From NCBI GenBank assembly GCA_028716385.1, contig JAQUPX010000001.1, positions 470,775-534,774 on the forward strand: a stretch of DNA of 64,000 nucleotides. The letters are read 5' to 3'. How positions within the stretch are numbered: position 1 is the first letter of the stretch; every line of letters begins with the position of its first letter. Positions 1-59,413 of the stretch are shown here, in pieces. The notes beneath the pieces were generated by a model that had not been told where the DNA came from, ran no database searches, and worked only from the letters and a program-made list of their open reading frames with translations. Origin of the DNA: a bacterium (GTDB lineage Bacteria; Hydrothermota; UBA3073; JACQXS01; JAQTXJ01). The position numbers and the translations under genes are program-made.

Positions 1-896
1 CGCAGGATAGCGGGTATATTATTACAGGATGCCTTAGATACTTTCAGATGTATCTTATAAAAACTACTTCATCAGGTAACATACTATGGACAAAAACTTT
101 TGGAGGGGATAGTAGTTATTCCTATCTTGGCAATTCAGTCCAACAAACAGAAGATGGAGGATTTATCATTGCAGGAATAAAACAGAGTAGTGAAAATTAC
201 TGTGATGGATATCTACTAAAAACCAATCCAACCGGTGATTCCTTGTGGACAAAAATCTTCGATAGAGACACTTCGGATCATATCAATTCAGTCCGGCAAA
301 CAAAGGACGGGGGATACATTATCTCAGGATATACGGCTTCCCCCGGGATAGGTAATTATGATGTGTATTTAATCAAGACTAACTCAAACGGTGATACTGT
401 TTGGACAAAAACTTTCGGCGGGCCTGCTGATGACAAAAGCTATTCAGTTGAGTTGACAAATGATAGTGGTTTTATAGTTGTAGGCTATACAAAGTCCTTC
501 GGCGCAGGCGGAACCGATGTATATCTCATTAAAACCAATGGAAATGGAGATGTCGCTATCGAAGAACCCTCCTCCAATTGGAGCGAAGCGACATCTTGCC
601 TTGGCGGACCAAACTTAACCGTCTCCCAAAACCCCTTCTCCAAATCTACAGTCATTAGTTACTCTCTACCCGCAAATGTAGGGTCCGTCTCAGGCGGATT
701 TAGTCTTGCGATTTACAACATCGCCGGCAAATTAGTAAAATCCTTTCCAATAACTCAATTACCTAATTCCCAAATGACCACTGTCGCCTGGGATGGCACC
801 GATAATAACGCAAACAACCTAAAAACAGGAATTTATTTTGTGAGACTTGTAACCGGCAACTTTAAAGAGACAAAAAAACTAATATTGATGAAATAA
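1..896 (+). CDS. T9SS-sorted repeat protein, 5' end outside window
   Basis: The frame is open from base 3, so the gene begins before the window and the ORF-track ATG at 48 is internal. The protein consists of repeats of about 50 residues with the pattern DGGYIISGYT...DVYLIKTNSNGDTVWTKTFGG, which resemble blades of a beta-propeller. It ends in a type IX secretion C-terminal domain (NPFSKSTVISYSL, IYNIAGKLV, then GIYFVRL and KKLILMK). It is probably exported and attached to or released from the surface; the ligand or enzymatic role is unknown. The linker before the sorting domain and one loop inside it contain GC-rich palindromic inserts (579-609 and 684-698). The T9SS assignment is confident, the propeller fold is likely. 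Confidence 0.85.
   Translation, partial: QDSGYIITGCLRYFQMYLIKTTSSGNILWTKTFGGDSSYSYLGNSVQQTEDGGFIIAGIKQSSENYCDGYLLKTNPTGDSLWTKIFDRDTSDHINSVRQTKDGGYIISGYTASPGIGNYDVYLIKTNSNGDTVWTKTFGGPADDKSYSVELTNDSGFIVVGYTKSFGAGGTDVYLIKTNGNGDVAIEEPSSNWSEATSCLGGPNLTVSQNPFSKSTVISYSLPANVGSVSGGFSLAIYNIAGKLVKSFPITQLPNSQMTTVAWDGTDNNANNLKTGIYFVRLVTGNFKETKKLILMK
579..609 (+). repeat. In-frame palindromic element (WSEATS type)
   Basis: The stretch encoding WSEATSCLGG is nearly identical to 36401-36430 in another T9SS gene. It contains gagcgaagcgacat followed by a degenerate CCGCC-TT-GGCGG hairpin. It lies in the linker between the repeat region and the sorting domain. Confidence 0.65.
684..698 (+). repeat. In-frame TCCGYCTCAGGCGGA palindrome
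   Basis: A copy of the 15-base palindrome found between genes elsewhere in the window, here translated as part of a loop (SVSGGF) in the T9SS domain, just before the SLAIYNIAGKLV strand. Confidence 0.65.
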
Positions 897-1307
897 AAAA
901 GAGAAGAGTAAGATGAAAAAACATATGGAACATTCTGCCTCGGCAATGTCGGAAATCCAATACTTTGTTTGTTCGTATGTTTTTCGTGACTATTCGTGTT
1001 AATTCGTGGATACTATCTTTTTGTAGTTTGAAGTCCGGTTTCTATTTTCTGTGTCCTAATAAATTTGTTCTCTGTATCTTTGCGGTAGAAAGCCTTTGCC
1101 TGCCCGCCGATTTTCTTGGAGGGGATCTTTATCCCTTAGTCCGCCTCAGGCGGACATTCAGCTCTGTCGGGTGAGAAATTATTTTTTTCTGTTAATTTAT
1201 TTGATATCCTTTTTTTATTATATTTTAGAATTTTATTGACAAGCTCTGTTATTGATAATATCTAAGATATAATAGATGTAGAATTGTTTAAAGAAATACT
1301 TGAAAAT
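897..1307. other. Intergenic region with dispersed repeats
   Basis: No convincing gene; the 69-aa ORF 965-1174 is repeat text. The region holds attcgtgttaattcgtgga, ctgtgtcct and tctttgcgg, members of the dispersed intergenic family described in the findings. The perfect palindrome gtccgcctcaggcggac lies at 1139-1155, followed by attcagctctgtcgggt, which recurs in diverged form at 53851-53886. A TTGACA at about 1237 may belong to the promoter of the next gene. Confidence 0.6.
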
Positions 1308-3173
1308 ATGAAAAAAATTATATCGGGAATTTTTCTTCTGCTTTTTTGCAGTTGTATGCAAAACCCTATCCCTCCTTCTTGGGATACGGAAATTAATTTG
1401 CCAATTGCTTCAAGAAATATTCTTATGCGTGATGTCTGCACGGATTCTATTGATTCCGTTTCTTTGTTTGAAAAAAGTTTCTCCATAGACCCTATATGGG
1501 TAAAAGATATTTTAGTTCTGGACTCTATCTGTCAGGATACATCCCTTGTATTTACCGATATTAAATTTAATCTCTCATCTAAAGATACCGTGTCTTTTAC
1601 GCTTGGCGATGTTATGCCGGAAATAAAACCCTTCCAGGGACAATGGCTGCCTACTGTTCCCGCGAAGGATTCAACCTTGAGCGATTCATTCCGTTTGCCA
1701 CTGGCTTTTGAATATATAGATATAGATTCCGGTTTTTTTGTTGTTGGCTTTAAAAATAATCTACCTATTGTAATAGATTCCGTATGCGTTAGTCTTATGA
1801 TTTCGGAAACTCTAAATCTTTATTATTATTTCATTAACCCGGGCGATTCGGCAATTAATAGTTGTAATCTGAGTGGAAAAACGGTTCAAAATCCAATTAA
1901 TTATGCAATGCATATCTGGACACGAGAAAAGACAGATTCTACAATGATTGATACTGCGGTTAATGTGGAAACATCCGTGGAATTATTTATTAGAACGCTC
2001 TCTGCAATGACCGGCAAATTCCCTCCCTGTACATCAAGCATGGTAACTTCTTTGGCTTTAACTCCTTATGCTATTAATTCTGCGAAAATTGATAGTGGAT
2101 ATTTTGAATTTCATTTTGAGAATCCTATACACGGAGAGTTTGGTTTCTTCGCTGAAGATACGGCAGAATGCAATTTCTTTAATATTCATAAAACTGTTGT
2201 AAATGGGAACAATGATACTACTATAGTAATAAGAAATGGCACTATTAACCCTGTAAACCGTGATTCTTTAAGACTAAATACTTGCTTTTACCCTACTGCC
2301 GGAAGTGTATGGGATACTCTTGATCAGAACGATACTTTTAGAGTTAGTATTAGACTTTATAGTATCTATGTTTCCCAAATTAGTGCACACTTTGATAGTA
2401 CTATAATTGCTTCTATCCCTACCTATAACAAAACTATAGATTATTATAATATTGACCCTACGGTAATAAAACTTGATAGTGTATGGTTCTTTATAAATAT
2501 GTATAATGGAATAGATGCAAACCCGGAAATAATTCTCAACGTAAGAGGAGCAAGAGCCGATTCTGTCAAAACTCTTACAATAGCGCGTACTATAACTCCG
2601 GATTCCAATTCTTTCAGAATAGGTGGGGACTCTGTTGTAAACTTTATTAACCTATTCCCCGAATCTATCAGTGTAAGCGGAGAAGTCAGATTAACCGGAG
2701 ACATAGGCGTAACTTCTACGGATTTTATATCGGGAGAAGCTGGTTTTGAAATGCCGGCAAGAATTATAATAAACGATACTCTTAAGATTGCTCCGGATAC
2801 TGTAATTGGAATTAGCATTCCACAACAAATAAAAGATGCTCCTATAGAAAGCACAAACTTGAAAATTCAGTATGCAAATCCTACTCCTTTGCAGGGAAAT
2901 ATAAACGTCTTTATGTCAACGGATTCAACCTCTTACGGTGAATGTATATATACGTTGCCGTTTGAACCTGCTACCGCTGCCAACCCCAGAGGAGAATATA
3001 CTACACGCTCTCCCGTAGTAATCAAAGAATATCTTAAATACGACAGACTCTGGCCCAGAATAGTTGTTAATATCTTTTCAAATGAAAAACCGGATACAAT
3101 AGCTGTCTTACCAAAAGATAGGTTTATGATAAAATCATTGCTGAAAATTAAAGTAAGGGTAGGGAAAAAATAA
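1308..3173 (+). CDS. Large exported lipoprotein, function unknown
   Basis: The start is set at the ATG at 1308 instead of the upstream TTG, because it begins a lipoprotein signal peptide (MKKIISGIFLLLFCSC, lipobox-like FCSC with Cys about residue 16). About 620 residues of beta-rich sequence follow, dominated by Asp/Ser/Thr and repeated D-S-V and T-I-V segments, without a catalytic motif I recognise. Probably a periplasmic or outer-membrane lipoprotein. It is followed at once by an outer-membrane barrel gene on the same strand, so a structural partnership at the outer membrane is a reasonable inference. No family name can be given from the sequence alone. Confidence 0.75.
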   Translation: MKKIISGIFLLLFCSCMQNPIPPSWDTEINLPIASRNILMRDVCTDSIDSVSLFEKSFSIDPIWVKDILVLDSICQDTSLVFTDIKFNLSSKDTVSFTLGDVMPEIKPFQGQWLPTVPAKDSTLSDSFRLPLAFEYIDIDSGFFVVGFKNNLPIVIDSVCVSLMISETLNLYYYFINPGDSAINSCNLSGKTVQNPINYAMHIWTREKTDSTMIDTAVNVETSVELFIRTLSAMTGKFPPCTSSMVTSLALTPYAINSAKIDSGYFEFHFENPIHGEFGFFAEDTAECNFFNIHKTVVNGNNDTTIVIRNGTINPVNRDSLRLNTCFYPTAGSVWDTLDQNDTFRVSIRLYSIYVSQISAHFDSTIIASIPTYNKTIDYYNIDPTVIKLDSVWFFINMYNGIDANPEIILNVRGARADSVKTLTIARTITPDSNSFRIGGDSVVNFINLFPESISVSGEVRLTGDIGVTSTDFISGEAGFEMPARIIINDTLKIAPDTVIGISIPQQIKDAPIESTNLKIQYANPTPLQGNINVFMSTDSTSYGECIYTLPFEPATAANPRGEYTTRSPVVIKEYLKYDRLWPRIVVNIFSNEKPDTIAVLPKDRFMIKSLLKIKVRVGKK

Positions 3174-3175
3174 CG

Positions 3176-3272
3176 GTTATAATGAAAGGATTTAAGTGGT
3201 TAGTTAGAGTTCGTGACGAAGGAACGTTACTCTAACTTATAAAGTTATAATGAAAGGATTTAAGTGGTTAGT
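3176..3272. repeat. Hairpin element flanked by a 29-bp direct duplication
   Basis: An exact 29-bp direct repeat (3176-3204 and 3244-3272) contains the first codons of the next gene. Between the copies sits a hairpin whose arms are GTTAGAG (3203-3209) and CTCTAAC (3230-3236), a member of the ATAAG hairpin family also found near 15.6, 28.3 and 59.3 kb. The first copy starts a 17-codon abortive ORF. The arrangement looks like an insertion that duplicated its target. Confidence 0.8.
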
Positions 3273-4473
3273 ATGTGGGGCTGTGCTCTTGAGCAACTCT
3301 GCGTATGCTATGTTGAACTTTAGCGGCAGGGGTGAAGGGTTGTCCCGCAATTATTCTGTTTTTTCAGCCGGGTTTGACGCAGTAGAATGGAATCCTGCAA
3401 ATCTTATACTGTCGCCTAAATTTTCGTTTAATATATTAAGCATAGGAATGGAATATTCTTCTAATTTAAGTGTAGGCGATTGGATGAAATTGGCTACTCA
3501 CGGATATTTTAATGATGAAGATAAAAAGATTTTCCAGAACGGCTTGTCTTTTGGTGCTTGTGGAGGAGCGCAGGCTATTTCTTTTTCCTGGAAAAATATT
3601 GCATTTACTAGTTGCCTTGCTACTAAAAATAAAGGCGAAATACCTTCGGATTTTACTCAAATGTTTTTTTGGGGAAATATTCCTGAAATAGATTCTGTAT
3701 ATAGTTTTAACGGGACGCAGGGTGTAAGCGAAATAGCCCTTAATGTTGGTATATCCGCAGCTCAATTACTGGCAAGCGATAACTTCTCTATAGGCGCAAC
3801 CATTAAATATCTGGAAGGTTTTTCTTATATGGATGCAAAATTGGATGGATACCTTAAAACTACTTTTGATACTACTGACTTTGCTGCGCCAACTATGATA
3901 TCCGGTAGCGGTAATGCCGTTCTGAGATATGCGGAAGGCGGCACCGGGTTTGGAATAGACATTGGTGCATTATATTTTAATAAAGATTATAATATGGGAA
4001 TATCTGTAATAAATATCCTGTCCGGAATGGAGTGGCTCGAAAACCCTGTAATAGATTCTTTGACAGGTACCGTAAAACCGACAGACCTTGAGCATTTTGA
4101 CCCTAATACAAGTGTTAAGTGGGATACAACAACTATTACGGGACACCCTTTTTCTACAAAAGAAGATATGAGCGTAAAGCTTGGATGCAGTATCAATAAA
4201 AAAGCTATGAATGTATCCGCAGAAATAGGTTACCCGCAGTGGATTGGAATGGGTGTGGAAGTCCCATATAAAGCAGTAGCTTTCAGAACCGGACTCGGAA
4301 TCGTAAAAGCTACTTCAAAATCTAACGTATGGATAGGTCTTGGAATAGGAACAAAATTCAAATTCTTACATACCGACCTTGGCGTGAGAGTAAGCCCTAT
4401 GAAAAGTATGTCGGCGGCTCTTAGCATGACAATATTGCCGGAAGAAAAAATAGAAAAAGCCTTCGGTCAATAA
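3250..4473 (+). CDS. Outer-membrane beta-barrel protein (PorV/DUF5723-like)
   Basis: 407 residues with a signal peptide (cleavage near AYA-M, about residue 20). The mature start, SGRGEGLSRNYSVFSAGFDAVEWNPANL, matches the N-terminal hairpin of PorV/OmpP1-type barrels common in FCB bacteria, in which the 'WNPA' motif is characteristic. Alternating hydrophobic strands continue to the C-terminus. In T9SS bacteria such proteins include the PorV shuttle, but many are paralogues, so no gene symbol is given. No Shine-Dalgarno sequence precedes the ATG; the original upstream region was displaced by the hairpin insertion at 3205-3243. Confidence 0.75.
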   Translation: MKGFKWLVCGAVLLSNSAYAMLNFSGRGEGLSRNYSVFSAGFDAVEWNPANLILSPKFSFNILSIGMEYSSNLSVGDWMKLATHGYFNDEDKKIFQNGLSFGACGGAQAISFSWKNIAFTSCLATKNKGEIPSDFTQMFFWGNIPEIDSVYSFNGTQGVSEIALNVGISAAQLLASDNFSIGATIKYLEGFSYMDAKLDGYLKTTFDTTDFAAPTMISGSGNAVLRYAEGGTGFGIDIGALYFNKDYNMGISVINILSGMEWLENPVIDSLTGTVKPTDLEHFDPNTSVKWDTTTITGHPFSTKEDMSVKLGCSINKKAMNVSAEIGYPQWIGMGVEVPYKAVAFRTGLGIVKATSKSNVWIGLGIGTKFKFLHTDLGVRVSPMKSMSAALSMTILPEEKIEKAFGQ

Positions 4474-15575: not shown

Positions 15576-15592
15576 GTTAACTCCTTTTTTAA

Positions 15593-15652
15593 GTTGGAGT
15601 TTCCGATCCGCTTGAAGCGGAAGGATTGCTCCACCTTATCCAGCTATGCTGG
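15593..15652. repeat. Double-hairpin ATAAG element, diverged copy
   Basis: Read on the minus strand: CCAGC-ATA-GCTGG, then ATAAG, then an outer arm pair related to GTTAGAG/CTCTAAC (here GGTGGAG/CTCCAAC, one mismatch) enclosing the nested palindrome TCCGCTTGAAGCGGA at 15607-15621. Same architecture as 28289-28349 and 59291-59403. The first hairpin overlaps the 3' end of the nitroreductase gene and supplies its stop codon. Confidence 0.7.
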
Positions 15653-28146: not shown

Positions 28147-28451
28147 TTGTCCTCCAGTTAGTCAAATCAAAAATCAAACATTAAATATCAAATATAACAA
28201 ATAGCCACTAAAACACTAAAACACGAAAGACTAACCACAAAAAAGTAACCCCAGAGAACTGGTTTTTTCTCTGTGCTCTCTCTGTTTAGTTAGAGTTCGT
28301 GATCCGCCTGAGGCGGAAACGTTACTCTAACTTATCCAACCCCGTTGGGCTTCTATCTCCATATTTGTTGTATGTTATTTTTTCCTCTTAATTATATTTT
28401 TCCTCTGTGAACTCTGTGGTTTCTTTTCATCTTATTTTTTGTTATCGTCAT
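28147..28451. other. Intergenic region with repeats
   Basis: No gene. Contains gccactaaaacactaaaac at 28203 and ctgtgaactctgtggtttc near 28405, both from the dispersed intergenic family, surrounding the double-hairpin element at 28289-28349. Confidence 0.55.
28289..28349. repeat. Double-hairpin ATAAG element with nested palindrome
   Basis: Minus strand: CCAAC-GGG-GTTGG, ATAAG, then arms GTTAGAG / CTCTAAC (28325-28331 and 28289-28295) enclosing the 15-base palindrome TCCGCCTCAGGCGGA at 28303-28317. In the related copy at 3203-3236 the same position holds only ttccttcg, so one palindrome appears inserted into another. Confidence 0.78.
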
Positions 28452-59290: not shown

Positions 59291-59403
59291 CCAGCCTGGC
59301 AGAGCTGGATAAGTTAGAGCAATGCTTCTACGTTGCAAACTCTAACTAACCTCGCTTTGCCGGATAAGTTAGAGTAATGCTTCTACGTTGCAAACTCTAA
59401 CTA
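59291..59403. repeat. Tandem pair of double-hairpin ATAAG elements
   Basis: First unit: CCAGC...GCTGG (59291-59308), ATAAG, then GTTAGAG (59313-59319) and CTCTAAC (59340-59346). Second unit (59349-59403) starts with a different hairpin-like stretch and repeats 42 bases with one change. The second copy ends 2 bases before the RBS aaggagga of the next gene. Confidence 0.8.
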
Positions 59404-59413
59404 AGGAGGAGAT

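Follow-up and report, generated by a model that had tools for sequence, protein, structure and literature searches.

The closest described systems to the locus reported here are the REP sequences and BIMEs with their REP-associated tyrosine transposases (outlined in PMC2817692), the MITEs and other small mobile sequences of bacteria (outlined in PMC2229807), and the duplications produced by replication slippage or template switching at palindromes (summarised in PMC7999016). The hairpin family described below resembles REP sequences and BIMEs, as far as the outline in PMC2817692 goes, in that its members are small structured palindromes present at about 100 copies per genome, both singly and in tandem. 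It differs in that we found no partner transposase and that some copies have long flanking duplications. By the outline in PMC2229807 the family shares with MITEs that it is non-autonomous, short, dispersed and able to fold into a hairpin, but its ends are not mutual terminal inverted repeats over the full element and there is no constant short target duplication. Like the slippage duplications at palindromes, the repeat studied here is a short local duplication that adjoins a hairpin and has microhomology at the junction; unlike them, at a second locus, nrdR, the duplication comes with a new insertion and not with a pre-existing hairpin.

Our leading reading, which we hold with about even confidence, is that a genus-specific hairpin repeat inserted within the first codons of a DUF5723 gene, and that the adjoining gene start would have been copied in the event (24 bp, with TTAGT as overlap), so that an intact gene was left downstream.

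A hairpin lies between two copies of a gene start

The window is the whole stretch of 64,000 nucleotides that was analysed (G000:C1:470775-534774), and its features are collected in Table 1. The preliminary description had placed exact 29-bp copies of a gene start on both sides of a 39-base spacer. This repeat is present as described, with a start-to-start spacing of 68 bases. In the whole window just one further exact direct repeat of 18 bp or longer has its copies within 300 bp, and this is the pair of tandem hairpins near 59.3 kb. The hairpin between the copies (3202-3237, AGTTAGAGT..ACTCTAACT) has perfect 9-bp arms and folds at -13.2 kcal/mol (z -3.0); this element is without the second small hairpin of the family consensus. 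TTAGT is found both in the gene (GGTTAGTATG) and at the start of the element. Since these final five bases of the first copy also belong to the end that is conserved across the hairpin family (TTAGTTAG), the duplicated gene-start DNA amounts to 24 bp with a 5-bp overlap, or 24-29 bp. The stop of the predicted 17-codon frame lies 14 nt before the true ATG of the 407-aa ORF.

Table 1. Features of the window, with positions counted from its first base.
Feature	Position	Strand	Remark
Upstream 629-aa ORF	1284..3173	+	stop 8 nt 5' of the ATG in the 5' copy
Extra 5' copy of gene start	3176..3204	+	absent from the relative; last 5 bases, TTAGT, overlap the element end
Predicted 17-codon open frame (MKGFKWLVRVRDEGTLL, then stop)	3182..3235	+	made by the 5' copy reading through the hairpin; translation predicted
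Hairpin element	3200..3242	+	scores 63.5 bits with model R1; arms 3202-3210 / 3229-3237 perfect
Native 3' copy of gene start	3244..3272	+	aligns with the relative's gene start
407-aa ORF ('barrel gene'), DUF5723 (PF18990), intact	3250..4473	+	second copy is its start
Family member	28286..28337	+	no flanking duplication of at least 8 bp within 120 bp
Two tandem family members, 55-bp period	59307..59404	-	just upstream of the next gene's Shine-Dalgarno

The hairpin belongs to an interspersed repeat family

The spacer had also been described as a member of a dispersed hairpin family, and both a pattern search and a covariance model applied across genomes bear this out. By pattern search we identified 12 copies whose arms are perfect. 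When 17 copies are aligned they share a constant frame, TTA-arm-variable loop-arm-TTATCC, and most family copies carry a second small hairpin, CCAGCnnnGCTGG. In this alignment both sides are altered in a compensatory manner in 8 of 15 pairs, and 87.8% of cells are paired, as compared to 81.1% in shuffles and at most 45% in slid versions; the 15 pairs were picked by the analyst from the same 17 sequences, so the slid control favours them.

We scored 150 candidates with the covariance model, which gave, as lower bounds, at least 94 copies in the window's genome (G000) and at least 86 in its sole sequenced congener (G001). With a stricter cut-off the same model gave no copy in 14 other genomes of the class. 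Rfam gave 0 matches at E up to 1 for five loci that hold family copies. The hairpin is an interspersed repeat of about 43-75 bp that is specific to the genus. Its copies are mostly intergenic. The ends of the element, TTAG.. and ..GCTGGG, are not mirror images, and one is constant while the other is variable. Certain bases are preferred 5' of the element: A stands at -3 in 1 of 125 copies and G at -2 in 60 of 125.

The core GTGACGAAGGAACG used alone as a search pattern proved unspecific, with reverse-order control counts close to the real ones. An integron attC origin was also rejected, as the arms, judged by eye, do not match RYYYAAC/GTTRRRY.

The relative carries the hairpin without the 5' copy

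The window site was compared with the corresponding locus of G001 (record JAQTXJ010000028.1, isolate STC_131, a metagenome assembly). G000 and G001 are both incomplete drafts (91.5% and 92%) and are the only two genomes in their taxonomic family, which leaves the window gene without an outgroup. We found that G001 has a degenerate hairpin (model E 1.2e-4) at the same place and with the same right junction, CTTATMAAGTTATRATG, and that it is without the 5' copy of the gene start. The preliminary description had taken the repeat as a mark of insertion; in the one relative available the hairpin is there without the 5' copy.

The state of this site in G001 speaks against the insertion reading. The window duplication may be younger than the hairpin, and the perfect identity of the two window copies, in a gene that has diverged 13% between the genomes, favours a duplication later than the hairpin in the window lineage. 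In this rival reading the hairpin would already have stood upstream of the gene in the window lineage. The polymerase, stalled there, would have passed over the hairpin, copied 24 bp of the gene start and returned to the start of the hairpin by way of the TTAGT microhomology; another path would be a tandem duplication of 68 bp from which one hairpin was later lost. The duplication would be secondary in either case. The TTAGT common to the gene and the element start fits such an event, the identity of the copies would make it recent, and the family often forms tandem arrays in which a hairpin is repeated together with its flank (the 59.3-kb pair; 5 x 91 bp at G001:C146). Alternatively, a TAA..TAA deletion (TAAGTGGTTAG vs TAAATGATTAG) could have taken the 5' copy out of G001, and the main argument for secondary slippage would then fall away. 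This deletion together with two G-to-A changes would yield the G001 sequence, although the remnant is merely four bases and proves little. We regard secondary slippage at a pre-existing hairpin as plausible at the window site, though we would not call it probable. From the relative's locus, pure slippage had at an early stage been our sole explanation; we dropped it as such because of the filled and empty sites at nrdR.

Filled and empty sites at other loci

At another locus of G000 (L115, G000:C4) the element (701-744) lies between two copies, 663-700 and 773-810, of a 38-bp sequence with 1 mismatch. Both copies begin with the start codon region of a gene that we take to be nrdR, which was recognised from its translated sequence and not by profile search. 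In G001, where the element is absent, nrdR has a single uninterrupted start into which the end of the same upstream gene runs. The upstream gene enters the first copy exactly as it enters the relative's single copy, which is the pattern of an insertion and argues against slippage. Judged from sequence, the nrdR locus looks as expected when an insertion brings with it a target-type duplication of 38 bp. If G001 had instead undergone a precise loss by recombination between the repeats, an identical pattern would result. The first nrdR copy also begins a predicted 37-codon frame, whose TGA would overlap the second ATG.

A third gene (MILTRPTPWGIITG..., MILTRPTPWG...) has its start region repeated in both genomes. 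In G001 (L145, C30) the repeats at 361-401, 514-553 and 775-815 comprise the Shine-Dalgarno and first codons, and they are separated by hairpin-containing DNA with two hairpins. In G000 (L167, C5) the start occurs three times as well (345-388, 547-588 and 748-789), and here the inserts of 155-160 bp are not of the hairpin family; together with the starts that follow them, the two inserts make up an exact tandem repeat of 201 bp. Since the start of this gene is duplicated around different inserts, its duplication does not depend on the enzyme of one element.

At G001:C22 the element follows CCCCC immediately 5' of a gene's Shine-Dalgarno, the G000 site reads CCCCC|TATTTTTAATCG, and there is no duplication. 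No clean empty site was found for the typA-side copies (L119), where the intergenic DNA is too diverged.

Long flanking duplications are enriched but infrequent

We scored repeats anchored at the element boundaries, requiring that the left copy end at the element start and the right copy begin no more than 75 bases past TTATCC. In this analysis, which was run after the window case was seen and counts the window copy (L024), a score of at least 12 was reached by 12 of 126 copies and a score of at least 20 by 7 of the 126, where mismatched flanks would give about 1.5 and 0.5, respectively. When the tandem-array loci L133 and L144 were set aside, 4 of 121 copies scored at least 20 as compared to 2 of 669 displaced positions (Fisher p 0.006). 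The displaced control positions also contain some long repeats, which weighs against the insertion reading. Long duplications are thus enriched at element ends, yet no more than a few percent of copies have one. L086 and L111 are weaker candidates. The duplication lengths seen were 0, 24, 38 and 45 bp, with no constant short length.

These results support the claim that the duplication is far longer than that of an ordinary MITE, and the window repeat is not a one-off, as nrdR (38 bp) and the third gene have long duplications too, but such a duplication is not constant in the family. The search for other copies and their flanks, proposed in the same description, returned few with long duplications (among them nrdR and the third gene) and most with none. 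A long flanking duplication as a property of the whole family is contradicted by these copies and by the filled and empty sites at C22.

A general target duplication of 7-9 bp, of which an excess was present in few copies only, is suggestive at most, because the flanks share low-complexity motifs. The flanks of L019, L070, L084, L103, L127, L131 and others are intergenic DNA rich in degenerate repeats of the TCTGTG/ATCTGCG type, which confuse tests for short target duplications.

Possible routes of insertion

On a REP/RAYT-type reading, a Y1 (HUH) transposase would move the family, and the duplications at its flanks would be unrelated later events. The family is small, structured, mostly intergenic and numerous (about 100 copies; at least 94 and at least 86 dispersed palindromes in the two genomes), its 5' end has a preferred base context, the C22 insertion is without target duplication as expected for this class, and G000 has two Y1_Tnp genes, one of them about 0.4 kb from a family copy. 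However, that gene (626-1132, minus strand, L029:560-1330, G000:C2) has palindromes of its own on either side (GTAGCGCGAAGCTTTAGCTTCGC), which differ from the hairpins and form a separate REP-like family. No hairpin-family match was found around the second Y1 gene (L159), and G001, with at least 86 copies, has no Y1_Tnp match. Thus at neither Y1 gene, nor in G001, is a partner gene flanked by the hairpins of this family. A transposase of this kind also leaves the duplication at nrdR unexplained: whereas the C22 pair has none, the nrdR pair has 38 bp, and single-strand HUH transposition is not known to make long flanking duplications. The G000 Y1 transposases are poor candidates for moving the hairpin family, and we consider a REP/RAYT origin improbable. 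A constant short target duplication, as a DDE-type MITE would leave, was not found.

The preliminary description had suggested replication slippage, repair copying or retro-type mobilisation. In the last case the hairpin RNA would be reverse transcribed at a nicked target and leave target duplications of variable length, as SINE/LINE elements do. The variable length in the minority of copies with a duplication, the conserved RNA-like structure with compensatory changes, and the one constant and one variable end are consistent with such a route. However, a search for the reverse transcriptase domain RVT_1 gave no match in either genome (both about 92% complete), while the control search was positive in three known genomes; retro-type mobilisation would thus proceed without a visible enzyme of the kind that a SINE/TPRT-like system has. 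It is further opposed by the clean C22 insertion and by the third gene, which has similar duplications around another insert. We give it very little credence, and repair copying is the best of the three.

In the preferred reading, insertion with a variable duplication, the element would be captured at single-strand breaks that are offset, or at a broken fork, with fill-in or template switching to follow. Because the duplication length varies, from 0 to about 45 bp, it fits break and fill-in better than a transposase whose stagger is fixed. On this reading the window copy would have arisen in the same way as the nrdR copy. We propose that copies at gene starts show long duplications because only such insertions leave a working gene, which would act as a survival filter. 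The bases favoured at the 5' end suggest that a specific nuclease may be at work, and so speak against insertion at random breaks. For this reason we keep a further reading, in which nicks set far apart, at variable distances, would let the non-autonomous hairpin into favoured sites (pyrimidine at -3, G at -2, before TTA), with neither a reverse transcriptase nor a resident Y1 protein; the 24-45 bp target duplications would spare essential gene starts and create short frames upstream. We think novel machinery of this kind unlikely, although some specific cutting may be involved.

A long and uneven duplication (24-45 bases) at a few gene starts is unusual for a mobile element. If long, variable duplications do accompany insertion, genes such as nrdR can receive a small repeat in their first codons and stay intact, and the initially identical pairs of copies would be dated footprints for the study of how foreign DNA is joined into breaks. 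If the duplications are instead secondary slippage, they would be an ordinary but clear case of local duplication driven by a hairpin. The comparison of two genomes would render the choice between insertion and slippage testable once a few more strains are added.

Other features of the family

A weak match to the hairpin model was observed in the window at 15590-15641 on the plus strand (25.4 bits, E 0.0005). Tandem arrays of hairpin plus flank were seen in G001 at L133 (C146), where there are five copies with a 91-bp period and the loop sequence differs between copies, and at L144 (C5), with two copies and a 101-bp period. At several loci, for example L026, L030, L096, L116, L117 and L126, copies lie directly 3' of CCTCC or CCCCC. 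These copies apparently stand just 5' of a Shine-Dalgarno on the opposite strand, such that CTAACTAA abuts GGAGG.
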